This document shows positions 224-58,194 of a DNA stretch of 64,000 bases, piece by piece. The notes below the pieces were generated by a model that saw only the letters and a program-made list of their open reading frames with translations, was not told where the DNA came from and did no database searches. A program made the translations under genes and the position numbers. The stretch's first letter is position 1. Every line of letters begins with the position of its first letter. Source of the stretch: Mesostigma viride (taxonomy: Eukaryota > Streptophyta > Mesostigmatophyceae > Mesostigmatales > Mesostigmataceae); the NCBI GenBank assembly GCA_009746045.1, contig RPFO01001168.1, forward strand, positions 30,571 through 94,570, read 5' to 3'.

Positions 224-271
224 CAACGGCCGTTGGCCCTGTTAAATTCCACACATCCCAACGGCCGTTGG
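224..271. repeat. Two copies of the CCAACGGCCGTTGG palindrome
   Basis: The 13-mer core CAACGGCCGTTGG is at 224-236 and the full 14-mer palindrome at 258-271. Both lie between the start of the left-edge gene (169) and the stop of the next minus-strand gene (364). The rest of 272-363 is AT-rich and probably holds the 3' untranslated end of the 364-708 gene. Confidence 0.9.
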
Positions 272-363
272 CCTTAGACGCACAAAACTTGACACCATCA
301 GGCGATTTTTTCCAAATGATTCTTCTTTATTAAATAAATTTACATTCATCCTAAAATCACATT

Positions 364-708
364 CTAGTCAACATCCTCCCCATCTTTAGTGGGTTGCATT
401 CGACCCCAATTGTCGTTCATAAAACTGACCAAAACATGAGCCGGAGTCCCCACATCCTCCTCACGCCTCAATTTACGCAATACACCTTTAGCAATTCCAC
501 CATACCCATCAACCTCCGACATCATCATGCCCACGCCATCAAGACGTTCAGCGTGCAATTGCCCGTCCTCTTCGAGAACCAGATCGGGCAGGTCTTCCAG
601 TTCGGCCTCCACAATCTCTATCAGCTTTTCCTTTGTAGTCTCCCCCCCTTCCTTTCCTTCTTTTCCGCACTCCATCCTACACCCTGCCCCTGCACAACCG
701 ACGTCCAT
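364..708 (-). CDS. Small acidic hypothetical protein, 114 aa
   Basis: An ATG at 708 opens 114 codons. The product is rich in Glu and Asp with a Cys-containing N-terminus (four Cys in the first 15 residues). I recognise no domain. The frame is believable as a gene because it sits in the head-to-tail minus-strand series: the stop of gene A is only 71 bp upstream, a palindrome is 45 bp before the ATG, and codon use resembles neighbouring genes. It could be a recently evolved or lineage-specific gene. Confidence 0.5.
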   Translation of the reverse strand: MDVGCAGAGCRMECGKEGKEGGETTKEKLIEIVEAELEDLPDLVLEEDGQLHAERLDGVGMMMSEVDGYGGIAKGVLRKLRREEDVGTPAHVLVSFMNDNWGRMQPTKDGEDVD

Positions 709-752
709 GGCAAGTTAAGAAACGGACTCAGCTCACAGGACATTTTGCAAGT

Positions 753-766
753 CCAACGGCCGTTGG
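753..766. repeat. CCAACGGCCGTTGG palindrome between two genes
   Basis: One perfect 14-bp copy fills the short gap between the stop of gene A (780) and the ATG of the 364-708 gene (708). It is 45 bp upstream of that start. Confidence 0.9.
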
Positions 767-779
767 CGACCAAAAACAC

Positions 780-3634: not shown

Positions 3635-3639
3635 CACCT
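3635..3639. other. Target-site duplication of E2, left copy (CACCT)
   Basis: CACCT is repeated at 17432-17436 outside the other LTR of E2. Confidence 0.9.
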
Positions 3640-4094
3640 AGTTGGATGGAGACTAGGGACGACGAACAACTGCGAAAGCTGAGAGCGAGTGATGATTGTA
3701 TTACAATAATACAATGAGAGAGAGATGAAAGCTGAGGGCTCAGAATGGAACTGGGCAGACTCGGGTGCTGTGGCACTCCCCAGTGCTACGCCTATATGCC
3801 TATGGCGGTGCTACCTGCAGCACACGACCAGTGGACAAGTGTACACTGCAATGCCATGCGACCACGTCACTAGCATCCAGCTAAGACTCGGCCCGTCAGG
3901 CCCGGCTACACCGGACCTGGCGGGTCGAGCTAGCACCTAGGAACAGTCTGGCACTAACCGCACATCGGTCCACATGACACCTCAGTACCGTACACCCTGC
4001 CGTACTGTACTGAGGTGTCCCGCTCAGCCGCGGTAGGCAATACGCGGCGCGCAGGCCGGAAATCCGTGTGTCAGCCTAAGCATCTCATCTAACT
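3640..4094 (-). repeat. E2 3' LTR (455 bp)
   Basis: This is the downstream LTR for minus-strand reading. In that direction it begins AGTTAGATG and ends CCAACT. A 71-codon plus-strand frame inside it occurs in both copies and is not a gene. Confidence 0.92.
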
Positions 4095-5161
4095 CCCATT
4101 ATGTTTTCCTTTCAGGTTGAAGGCTAGCGACTTCAAGCCTGACCCTGCCCAGCTAGGAGACTGACTCCAAGCTGACTGAGGTGCTGAGCAACTGACACCC
4201 ATACTGCAACATCTGGACTGAAAAAGATGGGCCCCAGAACTCGTGCAATACTTGTGATGGCATCACGTTTAGCTCAACATGCCCGGGGAGTTCCTCCTCC
4301 TCGCGAGCTCACAAGGGAGATAGCTATGCCTGTCTGCCTATCCAGGGAGTGCACCACCAGCCAAGAGAGCCCTTGTAAAAAAAATGCCAAGGTAACCGTT
4401 TAAGAGGTTCCATGTTGTTCCATCATCATCGCCCACTCAGAGAGAAAATACCCAGCCAGGCTGGGTCAACTGAGCTCAGGTTACCTGCAACCTGAGGAGT
4501 GACAGTGGACAGGTTTATTGCACCCTGCACTGTCCATGTTGTACCTGCACAACATGTGAGGACCAGCCACCCCTGCCCTGCACAGAGGGGGCTGAAGTCC
4601 GAGTGACAGGTGACAGGACTATGACATCCTGGACCTGGCCACATTGCACCTGCACAACGTGGGAGACCAGCCACCCCTGCCCTGCACATGGGTGACTGAA
4701 GTCCTGGTGACAGGTGACAGGAATATTTCATCCTGCACCTGTGCTGAGCACGTTGTACTAGACAACATGACAGCACCCATGCCTGTACTGCCACTGAACA
4801 GTAAGGCCAGGTGGCCCAGGATATCCACAGTGAACTGGGGTCCTGGGTAACCACCTGTCAAGGGAGCTTTGACCCTCCACTTGAATGGGGGCACCTGAGC
4901 CACTGAGCTCAAGGCCATTCCACCAAGGCATACGCCCTAGGGAATAAAGGTGTGAGATACATCCCATGCCCACCTATGAAGGTGTGCATAACGAAATTCC
5001 ATGGTGTTGAGAAAATCAAAACAGATTTTATTGGGCATAGGGCACGCAGATGTATGAAAAACAGACTCCAACCAACCCCCCTGCTGGAAGCCACAACCTA
5101 CCCCTTGGACCTGCCCAAGGGGTACTGGGTGACCTAGGCAGCCCTGGTGAACAGGACCCTG
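4095..5161 (-). other. E2 3' noncoding region with polypurine tract and tandem repeats
   Basis: No gene is seen. Next to the LTR the minus strand reads GAAAGGAAAACATAATGG (4096-4113), a polypurine tract that would prime plus-strand DNA. At about 4490-4760 a unit of roughly 105 bp is repeated two to three times, recognisable by CACCTGCACAAC followed by CCAGCCACCCCTGCCCTGCA. Confidence 0.65.
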
Positions 5162-7021
5162 CTAGGCGTCCCCCCTATGGGGCAGGGTTGCCTGCTTGCC
5201 ATAGGGGTTCATCAAGTGGTACAACAGCTGATATTGTTCAGCTGCCTGCTGAGGCACTTTAGTGAGTGCATCAGCAGCGTTGTGTTTGTCCTCCACGTGA
5301 CGGGTGGACTCCCAGTAGGTGGACTCCTGTTTCAGGACCACCCAGTCAAGATCAGTGTGGACAGCATAGGGGTTAGCAAGGAAACTGAGGACTGACTGAC
5401 TGTCAGTGAGCAAGTGTGCCACCACCCCAGCATTGCTGCCTGCTTGCATCTGCAACCAAACCAGCACATGATTCAAGTACCTGGCATGAAGCACTGCTGA
5501 CACCACTGCCCTGCACTCAGCAGCATTGCTGCTGACAGCCTTGCGTCTATGCAACCGGCTGTACCATGAAATGAGAGACAAGGGTGCATCATCATTCTGC
5601 ACAAAATACAAGCCTGACTCCCTTGCCTGCATCTTGGTAATCTGCCTGGACTCCATGGAACTATCCATCATAGCTTGGATGTGAATGGTTTTGTGGAGAT
5701 CCAAGGAGTGCAAGATAAGGGGAGGGCCCTCCTGGAGAGTTTTGGTGATGGCTTTGTGACCTACTTGCATCAAGACATCATCATCAACTCTGCTAACCAC
5801 AGCCAGGTGAGGTGCACACGTTGAGCACAACCACCCCAGCTTGCCTCTAATGGTAGGACAGGCTCCAGGTTTGATTTTTGTTTGCAAAACCTCCAAGCAG
5901 CTGTGCATGTAATCATTGGGAGAGTAGAGTGCACACACCCACTGGTTTTGATGCTGCTGGAGTTGTAACATTGTGCCACAAAATTTTATGGCAGTGGTGC
6001 CCAGCTCTACTTGCTTGCCAATCTCAAAATGCTGTGACACTTGTTGAATAAAATCATCCACAGCACGCCTTGGCCCAGCAATCAGCTGATCATCCCCATG
6101 CCACACAAAGGTGAGAATGCCATGAGGGTGTGGGACCACAAAGAAGCAAGGGTCTATGTCATCATATCTAGCCCCTAACTTTTCAAACACAGCCTGAGCT
6201 GACATCCTGAAAATGCGAGGAGCTGATTGCAGCCCTTCAACACCTATGTTAGCTTTCAGGTACTGCTGAGGGATGTGTTTTGCCCAAACTCTGGGAGTGG
6301 AGACTACGTACACCTGACCATGCCACACTTGTTGTGCTATCTCAGGTGAGCCTTTCAGGAAAGCCCTTTTAATGTCTGTAGCCTTACAGATATAGTCATC
6401 CCCATCATTGAGATGACCCACAAAGACAGACAGCAAGATTTTTAGGGATGTTTGCTGAATGCCTGGCGTGTACAACTCTGCCTCTGTCAGATCAGTGGTG
6501 CCCTTGAACTCTGTCACACAAGGTCTAGCATGAAAGATGACTGACCCATCTGCTGCTGGCTTATGTTTACACACAAACTTCAGGCGCAAGTGCTTGCACC
6601 CTGCAGGCTTTTTGTCAATAGGTGTGACAGGGGGAGTATGAGAAGGACTAAGAGGATCTGGCACTACCCATTCTTCCCTGGCCTTGTTAAAGGCCTCCAC
6701 CCATTTTAGGAATCCTATGTGTGTGCGACAGTCTTGCTCTATCTGTTCATAAGAAAGAGGAGACATTTTAGCCACATCATGCTTGCCCAATCCAAATGAG
6801 TTGGGATGAAGTTTTTGGTTGTGAACCAGGTCTGCCACACAGGGTTCTTGCCCTGGGGCATACTTGGGTGTAGCAAATTTTACAGAAGCAATGTTGGTGT
6901 TAAGAAGTTTTTCAAGAGAAATTTTGAAATGTTTCAGATCAACACCACCCATGTCCTGGATGGATAGTCTATCACTGGATATGAGGACACCAGGGTAACA
7001 GAGAAAAGGATCCCCCAACAA
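5162..7021 (-). CDS. pol: E2 pol C-terminal frame: reverse transcriptase and RNase H
   Basis: About 619 codons ending in TAG at 5162. RT signature blocks are present: ATDIKRAFLKG with the first catalytic Asp, and VWHGDDQL, where HGDD replaces the usual copia YVDD. RNase H follows with MMDSSMESR, NAAECRAV, TDSQSV and NAADALTK, giving the D-E-D-D set. The first codons overlap the preceding frame in a different register. Alignment with E1 and E3 shows one base missing near 7019-7024, so this and the integrase-protease frame were one polyprotein. The apparent start is therefore not a real initiation site. Confidence 0.88.
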   Translation of the reverse strand: MLGDPFLCYPGVLISSDRLSIQDMGGVDLKHFKISLEKLLNTNIASVKFATPKYAPGQEPCVADLVHNQKLHPNSFGLGKHDVAKMSPLSYEQIEQDCRTHIGFLKWVEAFNKAREEWVVPDPLSPSHTPPVTPIDKKPAGCKHLRLKFVCKHKPAADGSVIFHARPCVTEFKGTTDLTEAELYTPGIQQTSLKILLSVFVGHLNDGDDYICKATDIKRAFLKGSPEIAQQVWHGQVYVVSTPRVWAKHIPQQYLKANIGVEGLQSAPRIFRMSAQAVFEKLGARYDDIDPCFFVVPHPHGILTFVWHGDDQLIAGPRRAVDDFIQQVSQHFEIGKQVELGTTAIKFCGTMLQLQQHQNQWVCALYSPNDYMHSCLEVLQTKIKPGACPTIRGKLGWLCSTCAPHLAVVSRVDDDVLMQVGHKAITKTLQEGPPLILHSLDLHKTIHIQAMMDSSMESRQITKMQARESGLYFVQNDDAPLSLISWYSRLHRRKAVSSNAAECRAVVSAVLHARYLNHVLVWLQMQAGSNAGVVAHLLTDSQSVLSFLANPYAVHTDLDWVVLKQESTYWESTRHVEDKHNAADALTKVPQQAAEQYQLLYHLMNPYGKQATLPHRGDA

Positions 7022-8371
7022 AGCATTCCCTTTATACCTTCCAATACCTGAAAAGGGGTGGGGATACCGAGTATAGTCAACATGACCTGACCTAGTACCT
7101 TGAGGGATGACTGCCCTGAGAAATCAGCCACATGGTGCCAGGGTGAAGGTTCCAAAGGCAAATGGGGCACAGCCAGGGCACTGATAATGCTGACCTGGGC
7201 TTGTGTGTCCACTGCAACCATAAATGGGCTATTGTCATTCTGCCCAACCTTCCCCACCTTAGCTGATCCTGCAGCAGTTTGAGCTTTGGCTCTATGAGCT
7301 GCTTGTAAAATGCGAACAGCGTCTGCTAGGCTGCGTTTGGAAGGTGCAGCTAGTGGCTGAGCTATGTTCACACTTGTAGAGGTGATAGGTTGCTGATCAC
7401 CTGTTTTGCCAATGTGACCCTCTGCTGCAGGGGGCCAATCCTGCAGTGACTGCCTGCAATCATCAAGGGTGACCTGGGTGTCACAGTGGGTGTGGCTCTC
7501 ACACTCACCAGTGGGTGTTCCAAACAACCACTCACTGGGCAACGCTGGGATGCCAGGCAACTGTACAGGGCTGTCGGCCAACAGCTCTTCCTCCTCTGCC
7601 ACGTCTGACACAGTTGGAAAATACAATTTCATCCTGTGAGGTGAACACCTGTGAATTTTTCCCGTGTCATTGTGTTTAACTAACACTGTCCTGCCAGTGG
7701 TGTTAAACTTTAGGATGGTGGCTGGCCCATGCCAGGTACCCACCTTGCCTAGTCCCGACTCCTTGTAGAATAGGACTTGATCCCCTTCTCTGAAGGTGGG
7801 ACGTGGATGCTTTGCATCCTTGACAGCTAACCTGCTAGCTGTCTGTGCTCGCTGTGCGTTGTAGAGGGCTAGTACCTCAGGTGGATAAATGCCTGCATGC
7901 AATCCATCTGGTGTAATGACCACCCCTTGTGGGGTTTTCATGAGTGGCCTCCTGTTGAGGACTTGGCACAACCTGGTGGACCACAGAGCTCTGTCAGCAT
8001 AGGACCCACTGTCAGCCAGCAGATTGCCATCTTCTTTGGCTACAAGGGTTTTAATGGACCTGATGGCCCTTTCAATAATGCCTTGCCTCTCATGATCTTC
8101 TAGCCCAGCCAGATCAATAGCCTCACACCCTGGTTCATTGGCAAGACATGTGAACTGCTGATCCAGTAACAATGCCTCCACAGGGTAGTACCTGGCCTGA
8201 GCAATCAAGAGAGCCCTGAGCAACTGTGTCTTGTCCATTCCAGGTAATGGTTCAATGGTTGTGTACCTTGACCATGCATCTTTAAGTGCCAAGTAAGATT
8301 GTCCTTTGATATGAAAGACATCTCCTACCACCCTGCCCTTGCTCTTAGGTGGGGTAGCTACATGCCACTTA
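6934..8371 (-). CDS. pol: E2 pol middle frame: integrase core and protease-like domain
   Basis: Read from the T4 junction at 8371, the frame continues the gag-integrase frame ending at 13665. The integrase core has D in GDVFHI, D in LLLDQQF and E in GIIERA, then a C-terminal basic domain. Next is a retropepsin-like domain with AVDTQAQVSII and a hydrophobic VLGQVMLTILG strand. DTQ replaces the usual DTG/DSG. The frame then breaks (one-base deletion near 7020) before the RT. The protease lies after integrase and before RT. The ATG at 8415 belongs to T4 and is not native. Confidence 0.85.
8370..8371. other. Target-site duplication of T4, left copy (TA)
   Basis: TA here and at 13663-13664. Removing T4 plus one TA restores the integrase frame of E2 (codons ...CCC CCT AAG TGG...). 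Confidence 0.85.
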
Positions 8372-8408
8372 CAGTACCAACCCGCGGTAACGCAACTAGT
8401 TACGCAAC
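8372..8408 (+). repeat. T4 left terminal inverted repeat (37 bp)
   Basis: Exact reverse complement of 13626-13662. It includes the inner palindrome GTAACTAGTTAC-like core around the ACTAGT site. Confidence 0.92.
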
Positions 8409-9250: not shown

Positions 9251-9254
9251 CGTA

Positions 9255-11160: not shown

Positions 11161-11168
11161 TACAACTG

Positions 11169-11182: not shown

Positions 11183-11184
11183 TT

Positions 11185-21986: not shown

Positions 21987-22603
21987 AGTTAACGTAAAGG
22001 ATTTACGTTAGATGGATAGAGATTGTTACGCTCTTTCCAACGGCACCTTGAACGCCTCATTTGGTTAAGGAACGTAAAAGTTATGACGTTTCCTAGGCTG
22101 TGCCGACAGTACCCGGCGCGCCACTGTGGGCGCGTACGGACACAGGATGTACAAGTGTCACTTTGATAGTCCGCAGGACGTTGACAGGACTTGTACAGGA
22201 CTTGATGGTCAATTGATAGGTAGGCGCACTGTAGCGCGCCAGGACCTATGAGACAATTGATGCTGACTAGTGTACGGATAGGTCCACAGGACTAGCCGTA
22301 TGGACAATTGATAGATCTGCGCGCCAAAGGCGTGCCAGAGTCTGTGTAATCAATTGATTGACAGTTCAGCTGTGACAGTGCAGCTGAATACTTGGACGCG
22401 TCCCTAGTAAGCTATATGAGTGACTTGGTCACACCGGGACGCTAGTTCTTGCGTGCACGTTCTCTTGGCACTGCGACCCTGTCGTCTGTGCTGCGTGCAG
22501 TCTTGGAAGTGACGTGACTTACGTCTGTGTTTCCTGATTATTAATAAAGGCAACTTCCTGCAAGAACCATGGCGGAATTCGTGGCATTCTTACCCTCACA
22601 ACT
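21987..22603 (+). repeat. E1 3' LTR (617 bp)
   Basis: Same length and sequence by eye as 975-1591. An AATAAA lies at 22543-22548, about 55 bp before the end, and is a candidate polyadenylation signal. Confidence 0.93.
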
Positions 22604-23226
22604 AATTCGCCGACCGCAAAAGTAAGCCTTGCGAGGTGCGGGACCCACCAATCACCTTCCAAAAATCCGCAACCCCATCCAATCATGAAATACAACAACA
22701 GGTCTGCGCCCATGGCGCCTGCGATATCCAAGTCGTCATGCGAAACAATCGCATGCACGTCATCCTCCGAGCACAGCATCCATGTAAAAACGGCGTCCCC
22801 GAAACCTTGGCAGTAGGCATACGAGTCAAAGTCAGGGTGATTCAACATCCATTCCCGCGACCTGACCGCCATTCTTTCCAGACTTCCAGCACTGTCCACC
22901 TCAAAACTCAGGACAAGAGGTCCTTCACCAGCACTGGACTCGCCATGCACAAACAACAAGCCTCCTTTGATCACCTCTTGCATCTCCCCTGACAACTTGG
23001 CGTGTCCATCACAAAAAGGCATGCAATCCGTCCCGAATGGAAGCTGGCAATCCCGGGCGATACACCCCCCCTTTTTTGCAAACAAATCCTTCACCCTCCC
23101 TGCCATTCCCGTTCGCACGCTGACATGACGCACGCACAAGTCATCCCCTCCTGCTCTCGCTTCCTGGCACCACGCAACCGTGCATTTGACCGCCATCTGC
23201 GACCACCAACACCGTTTGATACACAT
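22604..23226 (-). pseudogene. Gene A, N-terminal part: zinc-binding protein split by E1
   Basis: The frame opens at an ATG at 23226, with a more likely ATG at 23196 because that is where similarity to the upstream region of gene C ends. From 23196, C5-C10-C21-H24 and C45-C50-C62-H65 form two C-x4-C-x10/11-C-x2-H modules, reminiscent of the short CCCH modules of WRKY19-like proteins. An acidic, aromatic-rich remainder follows. The coding sequence stops at the AATTC duplication and resumes in frame at 969. The complete product would be 260-270 residues. Function is unknown. Confidence 0.8.
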
Positions 23227-23497
23227 TTCTCACCGTCAACGGCCGTTGGCTTGAAACAACAAGAATGATTTATTACTCGCACGAAAATCACACCATTTTC
23301 CAGCCTCCAACGGCCGTTGGCGCACGAAAAATGCACGAAAAAAATTTTTATTATGCATTTATTGATTACATCCATAGTGCCACGTGGCGAATCACACCCA
23401 ACTTTCCAGCTGCCAACGGCCGTTGGCGCAAAGAAAATCAAACCCTAATTTGCAGGTTCCAACGGCCGTTGGCGCAAAGAAAATCACACCCAACACT
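23227..23497. repeat. Intergenic block with four palindromes, duplicated at 24116-24385
   Basis: Palindromes are at 23237-23249, 23307-23320, 23413-23426 and 23459-23472. The block separates gene A from gene C. It matches the region upstream of gene C almost throughout, including ACCGTTTGATA, the GTGCCACGTGGC segment and the run into the 3' end of gene C. Confidence 0.85.
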
Positions 23498-24115: not shown

Positions 24116-24499
24116 CTGCAACCCACCGACACCGTTTGATATACATTTCTCACCGTCAACGGCCGTTGGCTTGAAAAAACAACAAGAATTTTAAGATTTA
24201 TTACGCGCACAAAGCACACACTAGTTTTCAGTCTCCAACGGCCGTTGGCGCACGAAAAATGTTTTATTATGCATTTATTAATTACATCCATGGTGCCACG
24301 TGGCAAACCACACCCTACTTCCGGGTGCAAAGAAAATCAAACGCTAATTTGCAAGTTCCAACGGCCGTTGGCGCAAGAAAATCACACCCAAAATTTCTTC
24401 AGTCGCAGAATCCATTCCCCTCACGCAGTCGAACAGGGGTACTGTTCCCCCAGCGCGGACCTCGCCTCACAAATCGCCCTTGGGTACGATTTAGTCCCC
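24116..24499. repeat. Intergenic block with three palindromes and a decayed copy of the gene C 3' end
   Basis: Palindromes are at 24157-24169, 24235-24248 and 24358-24371. After the block shared with 23227-23497, bases 24396-24485 still resemble the last ~90 bp of gene C (CAGTCGCA.AATC.ATTC, then CCAGCGCGGAC) but contain stops. The block ends just before the stop of gene B. Confidence 0.75.
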
Positions 24500-33504: not shown

Positions 33505-36060
33505 TTTAAGTCTAACGGCCGTTGGCTCACAACCCCCCTGTGGGAAGGGTGGATGCCTTACGAACCATTCAACCACATCTTTATGCTCAGCTAGATTTTT
33601 GGAGGCCTTTCTTGGAAGGCACATGGTAATAACCATCACTAAGCTGCATAAAAGACACATCCTGCCTTACTGCCACCAAATGAAACGAATGAAATGCACA
33701 TGGTAATGTTTTTCAAGTCTAACGGCCGTTGGCTCACAACCCCCGTGTGGGAAGGGTGGATGCCTTACGAACCATCCAACCACATCTTTATGCTCAGCTA
33801 GATTTTTGGAGGCCTTTCTTGGAAGGCACATGGTAATAACCATCACTAAGCTGAATGAAAGATACATCCTGGCTGATTGCCAACCCACTCAAAGGAATGA
33901 AATGCACATGATAATGTTTTTCCAATTCCAACGGCCGTTGGCTCACAACCCCCGTGTGGGAAGGGTGGATGCCTTACGAACCATTCAACCACATCTTTAT
34001 GCTCAGCTAGATTTTTGGAGGCCTTTCTTTGAAGGCACATGGTAATAACAATCACTAAGCTGCATGAAAGACACATCCTGCATTATTGCCACCAAATGAA
34101 ACGAATGAAATGCACATTTTATTGTTTTTCCAATTCCAACGGCCGTTTGCTCACAACCCCCCTGTGGGAAGGGTGGATGCCTTACGAACCATTCAACCAC
34201 ATCTTTATGCTCAGCTAGATTTTTGGAGGCCTTTCTTGGAAGAAAAATGGTAATAGCCACCACAAAGCTGAATGAAAGATACATCCTGGCTGATTGCCAA
34301 CCCACTCAAAGGAATGAAATGCACATGATAATGTTTTTCAAGTCCAACGGCCGTTGGCTCACAACCCCCCTCTGGGAAGGGTGGATGCCTTACGAACCAT
34401 TCAACCACATCTTTATGCTCAGCTAGATTTTTGGAGGCCTTTCTTGGAAGAAAAATGGTAATAGCCACCACTAAGCTGAATGAAAGATACATCCTGGCTG
34501 ATTGCCAACCCACTCAAAGGAATGAAATGCACATGATAATGTTTTTCAAGTCCAACGGCCGTTGGCTCACAACCCCCCACTGGGAAGGGTGGATGCCTTA
34601 CGAACCAGTCAAGCCCATCTTTATGCTCAGCTAGATTTTTGGAGGCCTTTCTTGGAAGAAAAATGGTAATAGCCACCACTAAGCTGAATGAAAGATACAT
34701 CCTGGCTGATTGCCAACCCACTCAAAGGAATGAAATGCACATGATAATGTTTTTCAAGTCCAACGGCCGTTGGCTCACAACCCCCCTCTGGGAAGGGTGG
34801 ATGCCTTACGAACCAGTCAAGCCCATCTTTATGCTCAGCTAGATTTTTGGAGGCCTTTCTTGGAAGAAAAATGGTAATAGCCACCACTAAGCTGAATGAA
34901 AGATACATCCTGGCTGATTGCCAACCCACTCAAAGGAATGAAATGCACATGATAATGTTTTTCAAGTCCAACGGCCGTTGGCTCACAACCCCCCTCTGGG
35001 AAGGGTGGATGCCTTACGAACCAGTCAAGCCCATCTTTATGCTCAGCTAGATTTTTGGAGGCCTTTCTTGGAAGAAAAATGGTGATAGCCACCACTAAGC
35101 TGCATAAAAGACACATCCTGCCTTATTGCCACCCAATCAAACGAATGAAATGCACATGATAATGTTTTTTAAGTCTAACGGCCGTTGGCTAACAACCCCC
35201 CTATGGGAAGGGTGGAGGCCTTACGAACCAGTCAACCACATCTTTATGCTCAGCTAGATTTTTGGAGGCCTTTCTAGGAAGGCACATGGTAATAACCATC
35301 ACTAAGCTGCATGAAAGACGCATCCTGCCTTATTGCCACCCAATGAAACGAATGAAATGCACATGATAATGTTTTTCAAGTCCAACGGCCGTTGGCTCAC
35401 AACCCCCCTCTGGGAAGGGTGGATGCCTTACGAACCAGTCAAGCCCATCTTTATGCTCAGCTAGATTTTTGGAGGCCTTTCTTGGAAGAAAAATGGTGAT
35501 AGCCACCACTAAGCTGCATAAAAGACACATCCTGCCTTATTGCCACCCAATCAAACGAATGAAATGCACATGATAATGTTTTTTAAGTCTAACGGCCGTT
35601 GGCTCACAACCCCCCTATGGGAAGGGTGGAGGCCTTACGAACCAGTCAACCACATCTTTATGCTCAGCTAGTTTTTTTGGAGGCCTTTCTAGGAAGGCAC
35701 ATGGTAATAACCATCACTAAGCTGCATGAAAGACGCATCCTGCCTTATTGCCACCCAATGAAACGAATGAAATGCACATGATAATGTTTTTCCAATTCCA
35801 ACGGCCGTTTGCTCACAACCCCCCTCTGGGAAGGGTGGATGCCTTACGAACCAGTCAAGCCCATCTTTATGCTCAGCTAGTTTTTTTGGAGGCCTTTCTA
35901 GGAGAAAAATGGTAAATAGCCACCACTAAGCTGCATGAAAGACACATCCTGGCTGCTTGCCACCCTATCAAACGAATAAAAAGCACATGATAATGTTTTT
36001 CCAATTCCAACGGCCGTTGGCTCACAACCCCCTTCGGGTAGAGGCCTTACGGACCAGTCA
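33505..36060. repeat. 208-bp tandem array, 13 units, one palindrome each
   Basis: The palindrome or a one-base variant starts at 33512, 33719, 33928, 34136, 34344, 34552, 34760, 34968, 35175, 35382, 35589, 35798 and 36007. The constant part contains TGGGAAGGGTGGATGCCTTA and CAGCTAGATTTTTGGAGGCC. The central units (34136-35170) are nearly identical and the edges more diverged, as expected from unequal exchange. Frames of 67-100 codons repeat with the unit and are not genes. Confidence 0.95.
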
Positions 36061-36943
36061 GAAATGGTGTCCACCAAGCTATTCCCCCCACACCCACAGT
36101 TGTCCTTGTCCACATACCTTTCCAGTACAGTTGTCCTCAGCTTCTCAGCAACGGGCGACTCCTCTCCTTCTTGATGCCTTGACAGATATCACATAAACAA
36201 AACACGATCACGAGAGCATCAGGATTGTTAGAGGTTTCCTCCATCAACGACCGTAAGATACACACACCTCAAAAACCAACTTTCTTGTCCTCCCAAATAA
36301 CATATGTTTTTAAATGTAAAATAAATCACATTCATATTCTGTCACTTGATTTAACCACACAATTGTTCAGGTCCAACGCCCGTTGGCATTACGCCTCTTC
36401 CCGGTAAAATACTATTTATTGCTCCAACCCCACAAGAAACTCGTTCCGGACCTGTTCGAAGCGAAGAGCACTGCCAGGGATCGGAGTCGAGCCAGATTTG
36501 TGTGCGGAACATGATGGCTGGCCTACGTGGTGTGGAGCAATAATGTCGACATTTTCAGTGACTGTTCAGCCTAAAAAAATAACAAGCAGATGCGACGGCC
36601 CCTCCATTAAACAAATTATCCACCACTGTTGCGCTACACTAGCAATGTTTGTCAAGGTCCAACGGCCGTTGGCATCAAATAAATCACAACCATTGGTCAC
36701 TCCATTTAACAAAATACCCACAACTTTTTAACCACACTAGAAATGTTTTTTGAGGTCCAACGGCCGTTGGAATCCAAAAAATGCCGAATTCATGTCAAAT
36801 TTATATAAATGTGACAGTTGACAGAATTAGAGATAATTAAATCATCAAATCCAGCTTTAGCCATCAGCCTTACCCATCAGCAAAAATTGGCGAATTTCAT
36901 TCAATATTAGAATTCAAAATTTATTAATGAAATTTATGTTTCA
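36061..36943. other. Intergenic region, three palindromes, no gene seen
   Basis: AT-rich. Perfect palindromes are at 36659-36672 and 36757-36770, with a one-base variant (CCAACGCCCGTTGG) at 36373-36386. The right part probably includes the 3' untranslated end of the next gene. Confidence 0.7.
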
Positions 36944-37891
36944 TCATTCAACCTCTTCAGAATCCTCATCCAAACACAACATCATGTCCCCTTTCCACTT
37001 GTACATACTACTCTCGGCCAAATACAGCAAGCGTGCCTTCTTCCCCCCAAAAAACTTGAGATAATCCGGTGTGAAGATTGTTCCGCTGAGGACCTGCATA
37101 GCTAACTCCACCAAAACGCTTGCCATATCCTCCTCCCTACACCTCCTCTCTAATAAGGCCTTCATGTCTGCGTTCTCATCAAATCCCATGATCAGAACTG
37201 CACATGCCATTCCTCCCCCCTCCAGAGGCAGCCCCTCCAAAAGCTTCACCCATTCTGCCTCCCTACGCGCTCTCCTCCCCGGAGGAAAAAAAATGTCCTC
37301 ATCCGGGTCATAAGGAGTATCGCAGAACCAGAAAATGCTCCTTAACCCCCATAGTTCATAATTATCGTACAAGTCATCCATTTCCTTTCCCAATTGGCGT
37401 AAGCGAGCTGTCCACCCCCTCCAATTCCTCTCCAACACACGTCTCCTCTCAGCACGCTCGGACCTGAACAACCCTCCCATCGTCCTTGCTCGTGCATGTC
37501 CCTCTGGTGCTGGCTGGCGTCCTAACACCTCCTCAACTTCTTCACAATATACCTTAAAATACATTCCCCTTGTGACGAGTGTGTAGGGGGTGATATCAGC
37601 GCTTGCACACTTTACTTGCCCGCCATACAATTCTCGGAAAAGAGACTCAGTTATCAATGTACGAGGACCATCCCCGAATGCGTCCACGAACCCAGAAATT
37701 AACTTAAAGCTGAATTGGGGTTCATACCTCCCCGACACCGCTTCCCTAGCCCCTCTACAAACTGCTTCAAAGCGGGCTACGTCGGGCGCCTCCATAAAAG
37801 CTGCGACTTCGGTCCAAATTTCCCACGGCAGTGAGATATCCCCTTCCATTATCGGCCCCGACGTCAAACTTGTCCCCTCTGCACATAACAT
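36944..37891 (-). CDS. F-box-like protein, 301-315 aa
   Basis: ATGs at 37891 and 37849 are both possible. The later one begins MEGDISLPWEIWTEVAAF, leading straight into an F-box-like segment (LPWEIW ... APDVARFEAVCRGAREAV). F-boxes recruit proteins to SCF ubiquitin ligases through Skp1, so a role in regulated protein turnover is possible. The rest has conserved-looking Trp/Tyr-rich stretches, an Arg/Glu-rich helix (about 150-200) and an acidic tail (DEDSEEVE), with no recognised substrate-binding repeat. It stops with TGA at 36944. A palindrome lies 79 bp upstream of the first ATG. Confidence 0.65.
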   Translation of the reverse strand: MLCAEGTSLTSGPIMEGDISLPWEIWTEVAAFMEAPDVARFEAVCRGAREAVSGRYEPQFSFKLISGFVDAFGDGPRTLITESLFRELYGGQVKCASADITPYTLVTRGMYFKVYCEEVEEVLGRQPAPEGHARARTMGGLFRSERAERRRVLERNWRGWTARLRQLGKEMDDLYDNYELWGLRSIFWFCDTPYDPDEDIFFPPGRRARREAEWVKLLEGLPLEGGGMACAVLIMGFDENADMKALLERRCREEDMASVLVELAMQVLSGTIFTPDYLKFFGGKKARLLYLAESSMYKWKGDMMLCLDEDSEEVE

Positions 37892-37969
37892 ACATCGACG
37901 TCCATCCTTAAAAAAAATGAGGTTTTGTCGGAAAGAAAATATGCAAACGTTAGGCGAGGTTTCCAATCC

Positions 37970-38252: not shown

Positions 38253-39029
38253 CTATGAGGAAGAACCGTAGTAGAAGGTGAAGGAGAAGTCAACCTCAGA
38301 GAAGTCGACCTCGGTTCCATCCAGTATGGTCGTCCTGTTTACCCCCCTTATCACCCCTGCCAGCCCCTCCCTTGCTTGCCTCAGACGTTCGCATCTATCC
38401 TTATGCCTACTCCAGTCAGCACGCTGGCACTCCTCACTGCAATATCTGGCATCCCTACATCCTCTACACCACTTCTGAGGGCCTGTGTCGCACCCACACC
38501 CCTCCTTGGAGCAATTTCGCATACCACGCATGGGATCCCCATCCCTCACGATCGGGTCAGAGAGCAAGAAAAAGTTCATGTTGAGGGGTACTTCTGCCCC
38601 TACACACGCATCAGCCCTCACGCGCAGGGAAGACGTAACATTCGGGTAAAATGCGCGCCCGTAGGTGCACCCAAGCTGAGCCCCTTCCTCTTCCCCCAAC
38701 TCTATCTTTGGCCCCTTTGTAATGAACGACACCAAAAGGCGGAACTCCCTCGTTGGGTCTATTGGCGCTCTTAGATCCATCTGTGGTACGAAAAAACCCT
38801 CTTGAATACAGAAGTTCATATCAGCTAGCTGGGCGTACATAACCCTCTCCATTTGGCTGAACGAATCAAACGCCAATAAAACGGCCAAGTGGCGGCCTGT
38901 CTTCTCCTGCGCGACACGAACTTCCTCGAATATGACACGCGACAGAAAGCGAACTTGTTTGTAAACGTTTTGAAGGACGCTTCCGTAGACTTCATTCACG
39001 ATCTCGGACTCATTCGCGATCTCGGCCAT
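38253..39029 (-). CDS. Gene D, MYND zinc-finger protein, 258 aa
   Basis: The ATG at 39029 (MAEIANESE) is chosen because it matches the start of gene B; the frame opens slightly earlier only with TTG. Residues 1-150 form a domain shared with gene B, including a hydrophobic LAVLLAFDSF strand and REFRLLVSF. Residues about 175-225 are a MYND finger (NCSKEGCGC ... WCRGCRDARYCSEECQRADW ... HKDRC) with the full Cys/His set. A Ser/Phe-rich tail ends in TAG. MYND fingers mediate protein contacts, often in transcription or methyltransferase complexes. No SET domain is present. It is intact, unlike gene B. Confidence 0.85.
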   Translation of the reverse strand: MAEIANESEIVNEVYGSVLQNVYKQVRFLSRVIFEEVRVAQEKTGRHLAVLLAFDSFSQMERVMYAQLADMNFCIQEGFFVPQMDLRAPIDPTREFRLLVSFITKGPKIELGEEEGAQLGCTYGRAFYPNVTSSLRVRADACVGAEVPLNMNFFLLSDPIVRDGDPMRGMRNCSKEGCGCDTGPQKWCRGCRDARYCSEECQRADWSRHKDRCERLRQAREGLAGVIRGVNRTTILDGTEVDFSEVDFSFTFYYGSSS

Positions 39030-39209
39030 CTTTTTCAGGGAAAAAACGAACAAAAAGATTTACATCGCGGCCAAAAAAACGCGTTTTCCCATTAGTGTGT
39101 TTGCCTAATTTATTGTAATCATTCATTTTTAAAACAGTCAGGTCCTTCACAACCTCAGAAAATGATTTCATTAAATTGGCATATACATTTAAAAACATCT
39201 TAGGTCGCA

Positions 39210-39503: not shown

Positions 39504-40046
39504 TGTAAGTAAACCTAGTACCTTCAGGGGCGGATTAATTCATCAGCCGGAGTACAATTTTATTTTACAACGCCAACGGCCGTTGGCATTACAGCAATGA
39601 AGTTAAGATAAAAACGTCGTAATGCAACGGCTGATAAAACTGGCGTATAATCAATAACGCAAAAAAAATTGGCAAGAACTTTTTTTTGGAGGTCCAACGG
39701 CCGTTGGCATCACGTAAATCACAACAGCAATGATGGAAACTGATTTTGCAAGTCCAACGGCCGTTGGCATCAAGAAAATCAGAAGAGGGAGCGACTGCCC
39801 AAAAAACGCATAATAATAAAACAAGTACCTTGCAGGTGGTTGACAGACGCGAATCTTGTGTGGCGACGTGGAATCTGCAAGGAATGCGCAAAAACGTTGC
39901 AATCAGAATTACAAGGATTACATATTTTCCACATTTAGTTTTTCAGGTCCAACGGCCGTTGGCATGAGATTAATAAGAATACCACTACATGCGTGTGAGA
40001 AAATTGTGCCGGGTGACAGAATTAAATCCAAGTTGCCCAGCAGGTG
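39504..40046. other. Intergenic region with four palindromes
   Basis: Palindromes start at 39573, 39694, 39754 and 39949, each followed by GCAT. No gene is seen. Confidence 0.75.
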
Positions 40047-50751: not shown

Positions 50752-51427
50752 GGGGGTGCTGGCATGCATCAATACCTAGGGGGGGTGCTGGCATGCATAA
50801 ATACATGTGGGGGGTGCTGGCATGCATAAATACCTAGGGGGGGGGCTGGCATGCATAAATACGTCGGGGGGTCGCTGGCATGCATAAATACGTCGGGTGG
50901 GGTGCTGGCATGCATAAATACCTAGGGGGGGTGCTGGCATGCATAAATACCTAGGGGGGGTGCTGGCATGCATAAATACCGAGGGGGGGGGCTGGCATGC
51001 ATAAATACCTAGGGGGGGTGCTGGCATGCATAAATACCTAGGGGGGGGGCTGGCATGCATAAATACGTCGGGGGGTCGCTGGCATGCATAAATACGTCGG
51101 GTGGGGTGCTGGCATGCATAAATACCTAGGGGGGGTGCTGGCATGCATAAATACCTAGGGGGGGGGCTGGCATGCATAAATACCTAGGGGGGGTGCTGGC
51201 ATGCATAAATACCTAGGGGGGGTGCTGGCATGCATAAATACCTAGGGGGGGGGCTGGCATGCATAAATACCGAGGGGGGGTGCTGGCATGCATAAATACC
51301 TAGGGGGGGTGCAGGCATGCATAAATACCGAGGGGGGGTGCTGGCATGCATAAATACCTAGGGGGGGTGCTGGCATGCATAAATACCTAGGGGGGGTGCT
51401 GGCATGCATAAATACCTAGGGGGGGGG

Positions 51428-51617
51428 CTGCCATTCGTACCTTTTTTTCTTTTTTTATTTTTAAGCCGGCCTGGGGCAGCGGCGGCGGGTGGAGGAAAAC
51501 TGATAGCGTTCCCGTTTGTGCATCCCGTGACCACCGGCCACCAAACGGAGGCACGACACCAAGGCGGATCAAGCACCAAAGGAAGCAGCAAGGACGTTGA
51601 CGTTATTAACCAAGAAT
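51428..51617 (+). repeat. Satellite spacer 8, type b
   Basis: Private changes GGAGGAAAACTG and GGCGGATCAAGC. The units that follow it are mostly CGTCGGG and CCGAGG variants. Confidence 0.9.
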
Positions 51618-52215
51618 GGGGGTGCTGGCATGCATAAATACGTCGGGTGGGGTGCTGGCATGCATAAATACCTAGGGGGGTCGCTGGCATGCATTAATAC
51701 GTCGGGTGGGGTGCTGGCATGCATAAATACCGAGGGGGGGTGCTGGCATGCATAAATACATGTGGGGGGTGCTGGCATGCATAAATACCGAGGGGGGGTG
51801 CTGGCATGGATTAATACGTCGGGGGGGTGCTGGCATGCATAAATACCGAGGGGGGGTGCTGGCATGCATAAATACATGTGGGGGGTGCTGGCATGCATAA
51901 ATACCGAGGGGGGGTGCTGGCATGCATAAATACCTAGGGGGGGTGCTGGCATGCATAAATACCTAGGGTGGGGTGCTGGCATGCATAAATACCGAGGGGG
52001 GGTGCTGGCATGCATAAATACCGAGGGGGGGTGCTGGCATGCATAAATACCTAGGGGGGGTGCTGGCATGCATAAATACCTAGGGTGGGGTGCTGGCATG
52101 CATAAATACCGAGGGGGGGTGCTGGCATGCATAAATACCTAGGGGGGGTGCTGGCATGCATGAAAAAAGGTGGTGGGGTGCTGGCATGCATAAATACATG
52201 TGGTGTGGTGCCGCC

Positions 52216-52812
52216 ATGCATAAATACATGTGCCAGCAAACCTGAGCTGCAAGGGAGCGAGAAAACCAAGAAAAAAAGCACGCAACACACCACGCGTCGT
52301 ACCTTTTTATAGATGTTTCTTTTTTTTTATGGGGCCGGCCGGGGGCGGCGGTGCCGGCAAAAATGAAGCTAGTGACACCGCGCAGATGACGCCGTGAACA
52401 TGTCGCGTTGTACCGTAGAAGATACGAACAAAAAACAAAACACGAAAAAAGAGAGGCGGACCGCATATGACAGGGACGAAAAAAAGTCAGACACACAGCC
52501 TGTGTTATCTGGCATGCATAAATACATGTGGTGTGGTGCCGGCATGCATAAATACATGTGCCAGCAAACCTGAGCTGCAAGGGAGCGAGAAAACCAAGAA
52601 AAAAAGCACGCAACACACCACGCGTCGTACCTTTTTATAGATGTTTCTTTTTTTTTATCCTTGTCCTTCGGGGGCAGCGGCGGCGGGTGGAAGAAAACTG
52701 ATAGCGTTGTTGTGCATCCCGTGACCACCGGCCACCAAACGGAGGCACGACACCAAGGCAGATCAAGCACCAAAGGAAGCAGCAAAACATCAACGTTAGT
52801 AACCAAGAATGG
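52216..52812 (+). repeat. Two diverged spacer-like units at the array edge
   Basis: A sequence with CAGCAAACCTGAGCTGCAAG and CACCACGCGTCGTACC occurs at about 52231-52330 and 52562-52660, each after ACATGTG minisatellite remnants. The second continues into the type-b spacer body, ending with AACCAAGAATGGG at 52812. Confidence 0.8.
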
Positions 52813-53629: not shown

Positions 53630-53837
53630 CTGCTACCTGATTGGACGCCTGGCGGAGGAAGCTTTTCACGGCGCGACGCCGAGGGGCTTCAAAAACGTAT
53701 ATAAGCAGGCAAAATTTCTCCGAAATTTAATGAACGAGCGCGACGCGGAGACCATGCTAGTGTGCGGAACTGGTGAACCACACCGGTACGGGACAGATTC
53801 TTGGCTGATCCTCGTAGTACCTCGTGAACACGTCTAG
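53630..53837 (+). pseudogene. Fragment resembling the N-terminal domain of the MYND proteins
   Basis: The plus-strand frame reads GFKNVYKQAKFLRNL, comparable to LQNVYKQVRFLSRV of gene D, with compatible flanking acidic residues. No MYND finger follows. It could be a truncated copy or a first exon whose remainder I do not see. Evidence is one short match. Confidence 0.3.
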
Positions 53838-54360
53838 TAGGCCCGGGTTCAACTCCCGTCGTAACATTTTTTTTTGGGTTGGTGTGGCAAGCCTATAAAG
53901 CAATCCGCAAACCACTACACGGCTGGTAAGATTTAATATAATTAGCAACCTAATAGCTATATCAAAAATGTTTATGGGCATGGAAATTTTTAATATGTTG
54001 ATATTAGACTGCAATGAAACGAATATGCAACCTGCCCCCCTATGTTTAATACAATTATTATTATTATTTGTGGCATGAATATAATAATTGTGTGAAATAC
54101 AATGCTATGTGCAATATATTGCTGGTATGCCATGCAATTGTAACCAACAGGTGCAAGACCAAAAGGCGTCTTCAGGGCCCACCTGCTGCGAACAAGAGCT
54201 ATGGCGGCAAGAGGTGCGTGCAGGGTTACGGATTTACGGGGTTGTTGACCACCAAATTTGTTGTTACGTGTGTTATGGAAACATTTCAGTCGAATTTCTG
54301 GGTTCCAACGGTCGTTAAGGTTATAAAAAGTGCGTTGGGATTCGGAAATTCACATCCTGG
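53838..54360. other. AT-rich region, no confident gene
   Basis: A tRNA-like GGGTTCAACTCCC followed by a T run is at about 53845-53876, but no cloverleaf can be closed. A degraded palindrome (CCAACGGTCGTTAA) is at 54305. Confidence 0.5.
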
Positions 54361-54925
54361 CGTGTAAAAAATGCAGGTGTTGGCGAGTTTTCGGCCCGCT
54401 TTCAGGGGTCCAACGGCCGTTGGGTGTCTAAAATGCATGTGTTAGCGTGTTTCCGGCCCGCTTTCAGGGGCCCAACGGCCGTTGGACGTCGAAAATGCAT
54501 GTGTTGGCGTGTTTTCGGCCCGCTTTCAGGGGTCCAACGGCCGTTGGGTGTCGAAAATGCATGTAAAGGGCGTGTTTCAGGCCCACTTTCAGGGGTCCAA
54601 CGGCCGTTGGGTGTAGAAAATGCATGTGTTGGCGTGTTTTCGGCCCGCTTTCAGGGGTCCAACGGCCGTTGGGTGTCGAAAATGCATGTGTTGGCGTGTT
54701 TCAGGCCCACTTTCAGGGGTCCAACGGCCGTTGGGTGTCGAAAATGCATGTGTTGGCGTGTTTTCGGCCCGCTTTCTGGGGTCCAACGGCCGTTGGGTGT
54801 CGAAAATGCATGTGTTGGCGTGTTTCAGGCCCACTTTCGGGGGTCCAACGGCCGTTGGGTGTCGAAAATGCATGTGTTGGCGTGTTTCAGGCGTACTTTC
54901 AGGGGTCCAACGGCCGTTGGGACCT
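54361..54925. repeat. 62-bp tandem array, nine units, one palindrome each
   Basis: Palindromes start at 54410, 54472, 54534, 54597, 54659, 54721, 54783, 54845 and 54907. The unit also has ATGCATGTGTTGGCGTGTTT and GGCCCGCTTTCAGGGG. The array ends 66 bp before the ATG of the transposase-like gene. Confidence 0.95.
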
Positions 54926-54990
54926 ACAAATTGGGTAATTGTTGGAAAGCAATAATTTGATAAAAAGTCAAAACTTCGTCTGGATTCTGT

Positions 54991-57900
54991 ATGCGCGCGG
55001 ATGCAGGTGAAGCGCACAACAAAGACCTAAGTCTCAAGTACGTCGAGATCAAGGGCAACCAACTTGCCCTCGACATGGCCAGCGCAATGGAATACTTGCT
55101 GAAGGACAACAATCACAAGACTGAAAACACGAAAACTGCAGTAGGCTTGAGGGCGCTTGAGCGGCTGCCAGGTGCGGTTGTGAAGGTTATGGGGAAACAG
55201 TACCGCCCTGCGCTGAAAAGAAAGGCGTCGGAGTCCTTCGCTCAGGAGGTTGTCGCTAATATCGTGCAAGGTTTCCAGGAATTGGGCAAGTCGGATGAGC
55301 ACAGGAACGCGAAGTGCGCTGTGCTGTCAATGTGCTTGGGAAAGGACGGCATGAACAATCAAGGGCATTGCACTCTCGCGCGGCTGCTTCACGTCACGCC
55401 CAAGGATATCCAGACCGCAAGGGGAATGAGGATGGGGGGCGACCTTCCCGCCCTGAAGGCGCCCCCTCGTGCTTTACGGTCGGACAAGTTTCCGGAGGAG
55501 GTCAAAGACATCGTCGGGAGTTACTGGTTGTCAGACCTAAACACGAGGGCGTCTCCCAACCATAAGGACGTGGTCAATGAGTTCGAAAGGAAGGGAAACG
55601 CCAGGATCCTCATTTCCTCCCAGGGCGGAAGGTACTATTTGGACTCGCTTGAAACGATTTACAAGCGGTTCTGTTCTGACGCGTCGCCGTACAAGGGAGG
55701 TATCGTGACGACTGCGGACGGGACAAGGTACAAGGTGGGGTACACGAAGTTCGTGGAGTTCATGCCCAAGTGCGTAAAGGGCGTGTGGAAGGACCGGGAC
55801 TTGTGCGCATGCGAAAAGCACGTCGTCTTCGAGTCTCTGCTCTCTGCCTTCGCCAAAGGCGTCAAGGAGTTGAAGAGCACGCTGGAGATCGAGGAGAGGG
55901 AGGGTATCCCTTCCGTGCCTGACAATGCCCATGATTTCGTTCGACGTTTCACCTGCCACAGGGCTGAGAGGGGGGAGGGGGGGCAAGGAGGGGGGAGGAC
56001 GGGCGGCCCGTTCGTTAACGTCCCAATGAACTGCTTGGAAGGGACGTGCAACGAGTGTGGGATTTCCGAGTTCATCGTGACGGACCAGATGAAGGGGTGG
56101 ACAAAGAAGTACACGTGGTTCGACTTCATAAAGGAGGGCACAGCGCCCCGTGGGACGGTAAGCATGTATATTTGCATCGTTGAATATATATATGTAGACT
56201 TTCATACTTCCAACGGCCGTTGGCGTTGGGAAATTCCCAGCTGCTGACTTCCATTCTTCGGTCAATCCATGGTGCGCGGGTGTGTTGTGTTGCAGGAGGA
56301 GGATGTGGCGCCGCAAATGAACCTGCAGCAAAAACTCATCAAGTCAACCCTCTCGGAGCTCCATGAACTCATTACGGCGCGCTTCCCGGAATTCGCCATT
56401 CACGTCCATACATGGGCCTGGCAGCACCACGCTTACAAGGAGTGCATTGACGTGATGCCGCTGGGAACGGTGGTGGTCCTGATGGACTACTCGGAGAACT
56501 ATTCGGACCACCTGCAGAAACAGTTGCAGGCGCAGTACTGGTACCCAAGTAGTTACGTCCTGATGCCGGTGATCGTGATGTACCGTGATCCCGTATCGCT
56601 GGAAATCAAAAGGGTGAAGCACGATTACATGGGGAAGGACGTACCGAGGAATGCCCAGACCCTGGAGTTCGTGATGAAGAATACCCTTAACGTGCTGAGG
56701 GAGGAGGGGGTGGAGGTGAGGAACTGGATCAGTTGGTCCGACAACTGTAAGGAGCAGTTCCAATCCCGGTATGTGTTGGCGATGGCTGCGGACCTGCTCG
56801 AGGCCGACCCCGACTTGGAATCATTGGAGTGGAACTACTCGTGTGCAGGACATGGGAAGGGGGAGTCGGACGGGGAGGGGGGGACGGTCAAAAGCATCCT
56901 CAAAAGAGCGCAGATGCAGGAGGACAATCGGAACCTGAATACGGTGGAGGCACTGGTGGCCTACCTGAACCGGGATTGGAGAACCGGCAAAGACTCGAGT
57001 CGACCATCGGCACAATCGGACGTGGTTCGACGGGCATTTCTTCTCGATAACGTAAGTAAAGACAGTTGCTTTCTGGTGGTCAAGTGCAGTTCTATAATTT
57101 GTCTCTGGTTACACTTTACAGAGGACAGCTTCCTTGATGCAGTTTGAAGTTTCATAAGGCCAACGGCCGTTGGAGCTGGAAAATCGTATAATTGTTGAGT
57201 GCCAACGGCCGTTGGAGTTGAGAAATGTACTTATATAAAGTTTCCAAGGGCCAACGGCCGTTGGAGTTGGGAAATCTTATAATTGTTGAGTGCCAACGGC
57301 CGTTGGAGTTGGGAAATGTGCTGTGATGTTGTTTCATGGATTTACAATTGCAGATTCTCACGTCCGGTAAGGAGCGAGGCCCGATCCGAGATATCTCCAC
57401 GGCACACCAGTGGCGACTGGACAAAAAGGGCGAGCGGGTCGAGGTGGTAAAGCTCAGGCGTTTTTCATGCTTCAGTTGTGCGGAGTGCCGAGAGGGCAAG
57501 TGGACGACATGCCCAAACGATTGGAGCAGCTCGTCGTGGACTGTAAAACTCCAGGCGAGTAAGTCGCGGAACCCCACGCGATATCCGGGAACCCGCCTGA
57601 ACCACGTTCAAACGGCAAGAAACGAGTTGGGGCGTGGTTTGCAGGAGGGGGAGGCCGTCGCAGTCGCATCTGAGAGGGGGCACAAGGACCATGTGCCCGA
57701 CCACCCGTACTGGTTGGCGAAAGTTGTTCGAGTCGCCCACCAACTCGACAAGGATGAGTGTTTAAACAAACATACAGGGGGGGGGGCGAGGTTTTTAAGA
57801 AAGGCAACTGGGTAATGTACGTAAAATACTTCGAGAGGTGCTCCTCCTCCGGATCGGACGCCCGACGCTTCTTCTGGAACCCAGACGACCGAGAACCCTT

Positions 57901-58138
57901 AACTGCAATCGTGTGCTACCTGAGCGTCGCAAAGGTCACGAAGGGCAAGTGGGAAGGACATCCGGACAACACGCGACAGGGCTGGTTCACAATTGCGAAG
58001 AAGGTGGACGCCGAAATTACGGTACGTCATTCCAAACATTACTGTGTAAAATTGGTGTTTGTATGTCGCATGTGTTTTTTTGTCGACGGTCGTTCACCTT
58101 ACTAATGTTACATACAGGGCAATCAGCCTATACTTTAG
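54991..58138 (+). CDS. DDE-transposase-like protein gene, four exons
   Basis: Proposed exons 54991-56157, 56296-57051, 57354-58021, 58118-58138; all introns are GT-AG and phase 0. The first exon encodes a Lys-rich N-terminal region and Cys clusters. The second has VVLMDYSENYS, NWISWSDNCKEQFQSRY and AGHGKGESDGEGGTVK, the pattern of a widespread uncurated family of DDE-type transposase-like proteins (Asp in each block). The third has a Cys-x2-Cys pair (FSCFSCAEC). In exon 3 a G9 run (57778-57786) is one base too long: with eight G the frame continues to 58021 and into a short last exon ending TAG. It is either a transposon gene or a host gene derived from one; no terminal repeats were seen around it. 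Confidence 0.7.
56158..56295 (+). other. Intron 1 of the transposase-like gene, with one palindrome
   Basis: GTAAGC ... TTGCAG, 138 bp. The palindrome is at 56210-56223. Confidence 0.8.
57052..57353 (+). other. Intron 2 of the transposase-like gene, with four palindromes
   Basis: GTAAGT ... TTGCAG, 302 bp. Palindromes start at 57160, 57202, 57251 and 57293. They lie in two ~91-bp repeated pairs, each followed by AGTTG or AGCTG and GAAAT. Confidence 0.85.
58022..58117 (+). other. Proposed intron 3 of the transposase-like gene
   Basis: GTACGT ... CATACAG, 96 bp, no palindrome. The following exon is only seven codons including TAG, so it is less certain than the other introns. Confidence 0.45.
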
Positions 58139-58180
58139 CTTGGCTGCATGGCGCATGTCGCATATCTTAATTTCTCAAAG

Positions 58181-58194
58181 CCAACGGCCGTTGG
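58181..58194. repeat. Palindrome downstream of the transposase-like gene
   Basis: Perfect CCAACGGCCGTTGG, 43 bp after the proposed stop; the last copy in the window. Confidence 0.9.

Follow-up and report, generated by a model that had tools for sequence, protein, structure and literature searches.

The 64,000-nucleotide stretch of the Mesostigma viride genome analyzed here (hereafter the window; C1615:30571-94570 in an assembly of 439.9 Mb and 2,243 contigs) carries many copies of a 14-bp palindrome, CCAACGGCCGTTGG. Within the sample that we examined, this palindrome recurs as a cis-element in a large repeat unit that carries genes of its own and is dispersed through the genome in about 100 or more copies, and it is not a feature of host DNA in general. 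We are highly confident that the window's palindrome belongs to such a unit, and we give the whole explanation, in which the palindrome has a putative regulatory role in the unit, an even chance of being right.

Palindrome copies in the window

Scanning the window at 0–2 mismatches returned 46 copies of the 14-mer, 35 of them exact, 11 with one mismatch and none with two, while 100 dinucleotide shuffles of the window gave a mean of 0.41 matches and a maximum of 3. All 46 copies fall in the 16.4 kb that lie outside the long terminal repeat (LTR) elements (29.8 kb; 975-22603, with a nested element at 3637-17432, and 25040-33213) and the long satellites (17.8 kb). The original prediction, made from these letters alone, had counted about 45 perfect or one-base-off copies with none inside transposons, and both statements agree with our counts (0/46 in LTR elements). 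Its third statement, that coding sequence is free of the palindrome, holds for 45 of the 46; the copy at 56210 falls in a 63-nt in-frame stretch that is translated in protein record P0004. Allowing three mismatches added 2 copies, one in Copia coding sequence at 28774 and the other at 54305, beside a 62-bp tandem array, where it looks like a decayed palindrome. The central AACGGCCGTT is retained in 45 of the 46 copies, and YAACGG is intact in both halves of 8 of the 11 one-base variants, 4 of these 8 being units of one array. Tandem duplication makes many of the copies non-independent: a 208-bp array accounts for 13 and the 62-bp array for 9, and there are shorter duplications of 46 bp and 42/91 bp. 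We therefore used a representative set of 26 palindrome contexts.

The dispersed gene-bearing unit

To locate further copies, we used the oriented palindrome context GCCAACGGCCGTTGGACCTGNAAA, which matched 96 places in 88 contigs (control, 0); 2 of these places share one unit copy on contig C2211. Six of the 96 were fetched, selected for their location in contigs of 1.2–5.8 Mb, and all 6 are 92–98% copies of window 39.6–40.3 kb with three exact palindromes each. Only C2211:484010 matched a longer context pattern. A seventh fetched stretch, C2211:482000-486500, is a 97.4% copy of window 37.3–40.3 kb and holds the MYND gene together with a portion of the F-box-like gene. Two other genes were mapped genome-wide. 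The open reading frame (ORF) at 56248-57147 gave 131 scored matches among 710 candidates, 64 of which, the window's own included, are full-length at 100% amino-acid identity, and the Cys/His-rich ORF at 22519-23229 gave 151 matches, the complete ones being 89–98% identical to the window copy over the common part. Of the 96 places, 65 have the first gene within 60 kb, always on the opposite strand (65/65), and 73 have the second within that distance; the places without a near neighbor gene include many on short contigs. At 51 of the 96 places both genes were found within 60 kb (median distances 13.6 and 10.1 kb, respectively), and their order and orientation were identical in 51/51. This agreement indicates that the 96 places belong to one repeat unit.

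Since its copies are many, dispersed and alike, the unit is probably a mobile element, and the LTR elements of the window are insertions into it. No hallmark transposon enzyme was recognized among the unit ORFs tested. The ORF at 56.2–57.1 kb, which is reminiscent of DDE/KDZ-type transposases, had no Pfam match at E 10, and the Cys/His-rich ORF had only a weak match to the KDZ-associated CxC6 cluster (E 0.32). A subtelomeric repeat is disfavored, the fetched places being interior to contigs of 1.1–5.8 Mb. At C1135:3447-11878 and at C1398:129074-137494, the palindrome context of the unit occurs as an inverted pair with a spacing of 8.4 kb.

Genome-wide distribution

The whole assembly holds 9,685 exact copies of the palindrome and none of a reversed-letter control. 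At up to two mismatches the count was 13,060, against 2,283 for the control; the excess of near misses (1–2 mismatches) over the control is only about 1,100 beside the 9,685 exact copies, so the exact sequence is close to all-or-nothing. Contig C1 (14.3 Mb) has no exact copy in 1-2,100,887, the first being at 2,100,888, and none in 2,197,982-5,080,383, where the borders and part of the stretch read N; the genome mean predicts about 110 exact copies over these two stretches. The second stretch is not wholly N, because a viral capsid match sits at C1:4.45 Mb. Five control stretches (L139–L143; 50 kb) contained no palindrome at up to two mismatches. In the parts of the unit that we saw, exact palindromes number about 65 per unit (35 in the window, 3 in L125, 11 in the L137 array and 16 in L138), so that 100–150 units could hold nearly all of the 9,685.

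Together with the shuffles, the genome-wide count bears out the earlier claim that the 14-mer lies far above chance. The same note had proposed that it marks host noncoding DNA generally, in parallel to the cyanobacterial palindrome HIP1. A host genome-wide signal would account for the 9,685 copies in the genome, but we regard it as most improbable: long stretches of C1 lack copies, each of the 6 fetched places is one repeat, and in the window the palindrome is carried by a repeat unit with dispersed copies. On this distribution we reject a HIP1-like genome word, and both the general marking of host DNA and the parallel are abandoned here. HIP1 (GCGATCGC) is a frequent whole-genome word linked with DNA methyltransferases (PMC4390886). 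Both it and the present 14-mer are highly iterated short palindromes; HIP1 is spread over whole genomes, whereas CCAACGGCCGTTGG was confined to one repeat unit wherever it was examined. The accompanying idea of a function or a spread of its own is plausible, and the palindrome has spread together with the repeat unit.

Pieces from both C1 palindrome clusters match the window at 97–100%, which suggests that C1615 is an allelic contig. On C1, about 2.9 Mb with N at the borders (C1:2198117-5080317) interrupts the counterpart of the window, possibly through a scaffolding misjoin.

Capsid genes and other sequence collections

A search for the major capsid family of nucleocytoplasmic large DNA viruses (NCLDV) gave 150 scored matches among 507 candidates, in open frames and on many contigs. 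These matches are often paired about 1.4 kb apart and represent extensive endogenous large-virus DNA, separate from the palindrome unit. No scored capsid match was found within 60 kb of a palindrome place (0 of 96 places, 150 matches), a test whose reach is smaller in contigs below 60 kb; the closest pair is 90 kb apart, and the two sets have just 6 contigs in common. An endogenous giant virus as the carrier of the palindrome is thus unsupported by position. Among viral contigs, the 14-mer occurred in 108 stretches, with one copy in each of the best 80 of the 108, which we take as chance background, and a search of viral contigs for related loci found none. The paired palindrome pattern had 0 matches in prokaryote genomes, and the palindrome was not found in the open-licence literature.

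Conservation of the palindrome

All 22 window-versus-copy alignments that bear a palindrome and span at least 150 bp showed 0 differences inside palindromes, a comparison of low power in which many alignments overlap and most are little diverged. In three of them the flanks are 9–11% divergent (25/228, 19/192 and 15/166 differences outside), still with 0 differences inside. Four tandem arrays showed 6/182, 0/126, 2/182 and 0/224 differences in the palindrome, versus 6–8% elsewhere. These figures bear on the possibility that the palindrome is a functionless passenger, repeated in an ancestral unit and alike among copies through recent amplification. The low power of most window-versus-copy comparisons suits that explanation, as do the 64 full-length gene copies of identical amino-acid sequence; the genes of many unit copies are almost identical, so there was little time for the palindrome to decay. 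We nevertheless find it quite improbable, since about 20 unrelated flanking contexts carry the same exact 14-mer with the same T/A flanks, paralogous stretches in the unit that are 9–11% divergent leave the palindrome unchanged, and the window has no two-mismatch copy.

Structure, position and orientation of the site

The palindrome forms the invariant core of a longer oriented dyad, about 34 bp in length, that reads TTT, 6 bp, G, CCAACGGCCGTTGG, A.YTG.., AAA. Aligned in gene sense, the 26 representatives have G before the palindrome in 22, A after it in 17 and T at +17 in 21; AAA at +21 to +23 is present in 22, 25 and 26 of 26, and TTT at −10 to −8 in 22, 20 and 16 of 26. The centers of the T-tract and the A-tract are 31 bp apart, about three helical turns. 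In the window, palindromes lie 39, 40, 43 and 44 bp upstream of four ATGs (Table 1) and 70, 78 and 108 bp upstream of three further ATGs. Others are intronic in introns predicted by eye, namely four in 57052-57353 and those of the 46-bp arrays in L137 and L138. A flank model trained on the other clusters picked the gene sense at 26 of 31 sites (cross-validated).

The orientation with respect to genes could also reflect an element that acts in the nascent transcript, in splicing, processing or stability, as a hairpin or bound sequence in 5' leaders and introns. The sense orientation at 26/31 sites is in keeping with such an RNA-level role, and so are the copies in introns and in the alternatively used in-frame exon. 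Against this, a 5-bp stem with a GGCC loop would need no invariant loop, and the arms show no clear covariation: only 3 of 30 mirrored flank positions covary at p < 0.05, and the paired-flank sum of 0.379 at register 0 hardly exceeds the 0.374 and 0.367 obtained when slid by one base. A longer hairpin was rejected on the same figures, and Rfam gave no match in the window at gathering scores. We therefore consider an RNA-level element unlikely. A dimeric DNA-binding protein fits better than an RNA hairpin because of the perfect dyad with its two equal half-sites, the near-invariant center, the symmetric T/A flanks and the promoter-proximal and intronic positions.

As a separate observation, the repeated palindrome context in L125:888-1500 stops within a palindrome, and the copy at 23413 of the window is absent from the paralogous stretch; palindromes may be breakpoints at these two places.

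A putative regulatory role in the unit

In the explanation that we favor, a putative dimeric, sequence-specific protein, encoded by the unit or derived from the host, would bind both AACGG half-sites, and the T- and A-tracts 31 bp apart would help it to bend or grip the DNA. Bound sites would serve as promoter-proximal elements and enhancers and would switch the genes of the unit, itself a presumed mobile element, as one regulon. Tandem duplication of sites (about 42, 46, 62 and 208 bp) would raise the dose. Each half of the palindrome is CAACGG, and Myb proteins recognize YAACGG; in contrast to simple Myb sites, the element studied here is an exact head-to-head dyad with fixed T/A flanks.

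The action of IE1 on the palindromes of baculovirus homologous regions (hrs) could be a model for such a regulon. According to PMC6669502, hrs are enhancers and origins whose palindromes are bound by IE1, and they share with the unit a short two-half-site palindrome in many copies, arrayed in a large DNA element; a repeated two-half-site palindrome in a large element is what we found in the unit. The differences are that hr palindromes are imperfect, about 30 bp long and located in viral genomes, whereas here the palindrome is 14 bp, exact, oriented and also intronic, and belongs to a chromosomal repeat near which no capsid gene was found. Giant transposons (Polintons/Mavericks, Teratorn, Terminons and giant Helitrons), reviewed in PMC6431247, are likewise long, dispersed multigene units with many near-identical copies, and dispersed copies of conserved internal order were found for the unit (51/51). 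In the unit, unlike in those elements, no hallmark enzyme was recognized in the tested ORFs, and a dense gene-linked palindrome is present.

Alternatively, the copies could be mobility or replication sites that bind the unit's own transposase or a replication or partition protein. Dozens of exact sites per unit, the regular arrays of 42–62 bp and the amplification of the unit to about 100 copies would all be expected of such sites, and analogues exist in the subterminal repeats of plant transposons and in the family of repeats of Epstein–Barr virus (EBV). In the latter, the sites of EBNA1 form regular arrays of a palindromic site; arrays of this kind are common to both systems, which differ in that the unit is a chromosomal repeat with sense-oriented and intronic copies and that no EBNA1-like protein was found. 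Since the sites are spread through the unit and placed relative to genes, and no enzyme was identified among the unit ORFs tested, we judge a mobility or replication site rather improbable.

Several observations weigh against the regulatory reading. No DNA-binding protein was identified in the unit, and recent amplification alone would keep unit copies alike. Within 540 bp of its ATG the MYND gene lacks any palindrome, one palindrome lies downstream of a gene (58181-58194) and one in an exon (56210). The orientation model was wrong at 5 of 31 sites, and sites in one cluster are related. Within the four arrays, in the order given above, 31/194, 1/49, 8/33 and 14/33 of the 14-column windows are conserved as well as the palindrome, which is the single best-conserved window only in the 62-bp array (1/49); this test leans toward the palindrome because the units were picked by it. 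Finally, outside C1 one palindrome context was mapped (the 96 places) and 7 places were fetched, so other carriers are possible.

Features and genes of the window

The features of the window that belong to the unit or bear palindromes are collected in Table 1. The Cys/His-rich ORF has an earlier in-frame ATG at 23226, from which the gap to the palindrome would be 9 bp, and the palindrome at 37970 lies 78 bp upstream of the first in-frame ATG of the F-box-like ORF.

Table 1. Palindrome-bearing features and unit genes (window coordinates).
Feature	Position	Strand	Remarks
Two palindromes	223..271	-	223 with one mismatch, 258 exact; 223 is 43 bp upstream of ATG 179
Palindrome	753..766	-	44 bp upstream of ATG 708
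Cys/His-rich ORF of the unit	22519..23229	-	Shortened in the window by an LTR element
Four palindromes between two tandem genes	23236..23472	-	23236 is 39 bp upstream of ATG 23196
Three palindromes, paralogous intergenic stretch	24156..24371	-	24156 is 40 bp upstream of ATG 24115
208-bp tandem array	33508..36032	-	13 palindromes, one per unit
Three palindromes 3' of F-box-like gene	36373..36770	-	
F-box-like ORF of the unit	36944..37969	-	Pfam E 0.0024, below cut-off
MYND-finger gene of the unit	38253..39059	-	
Four palindromes	39573..39962	-	Stretch that located the 96 places in 88 contigs
62-bp tandem array	54368..54921	+	Nine exact palindromes, the last 70 bp upstream of ATG 54991
Intron-containing gene of the unit	54991..57815	+	3' end uncertain
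63-nt in-frame exon with palindrome 56210	56198..56260	+	Translated in P0004
Predicted GT-AG intron	57052..57353	+	Four exact palindromes (57160, 57202, 57251, 57293)
Exact palindrome 3' of the 54991..57815 gene	58181..58194	+	

Looking up the protein of the 56.2–57.1 kb ORF returned a single record, P0004, which reads 56198-56260 as TFILPTAVGVGKFPAADFHSS between both flanking exons. This reading suggests that the gene at 54991-57815 (55.0–57.8 kb) is expressed and that the palindrome can occur in mRNA; if P0004 is transcript-derived, the gene is both expressed and spliced. The record is labelled Prorocentrum lima, possibly a co-cultured organism, and we do not take the label as an identification. 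Protein look-ups gave no relative for the F-box-like ORF, one close relative at 59% identity and two weak ones for the Copia ORF, and no convincing PDB relative. The structure model of 56248-57147 had a mean pLDDT of 36 and was not used.

The LTR element at 970-22608 has 617-bp LTRs that are 100% identical and an AATTC target duplication (by eye). It interrupts the Cys/His-rich gene, whose open frame spans 271 aa in many other copies of the unit. The observed/expected CpG ratio is mostly 0.26–0.57 in the LTR interiors (975-33213), with one outer part at 0.84, and 0.72–1.07 in unit DNA, a contrast that may reflect methylation or codon use. A 29-bp satellite of about 411 copies (40408-52227) separates the unit's two divergent gene blocks. 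A SINE-like (short interspersed element) candidate at 53700-53875 has a tRNA-like B-box followed by a T run (by eye), with no tRNA called by ARAGORN, and short interstitial CCCTAAA-like telomere repeats were seen by eye at 58345-58372.

Implications for the genome of Mesostigma viride

The mapped core of the unit alone (96 places, median span about 24 kb) would make up about 0.5% of the assembly, and one 14-mer provides a handle for finding, counting and dating each unit copy. The case also illustrates that a motif absent from small transposons can pass for a host signal when the supposed host DNA is a larger repeat. In its boldest form, which we advance tentatively and hold to be doubtful, the unit would represent a new class of giant eukaryotic mobile element with about 100 copies, no capsid genes nearby and a regulon of its own, bearing an exact palindromic operator dozens of times per copy, before and inside most genes, so that one dimeric protein could wake or silence all copies. 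If the proposed explanation is true, a giant selfish unit with a common regulatory code resides in a eukaryotic chromosome set, as a chromosomal counterpart of viral hr or EBNA1 arrays, and the coordination of many genes by a mobile element could be tested directly on it.

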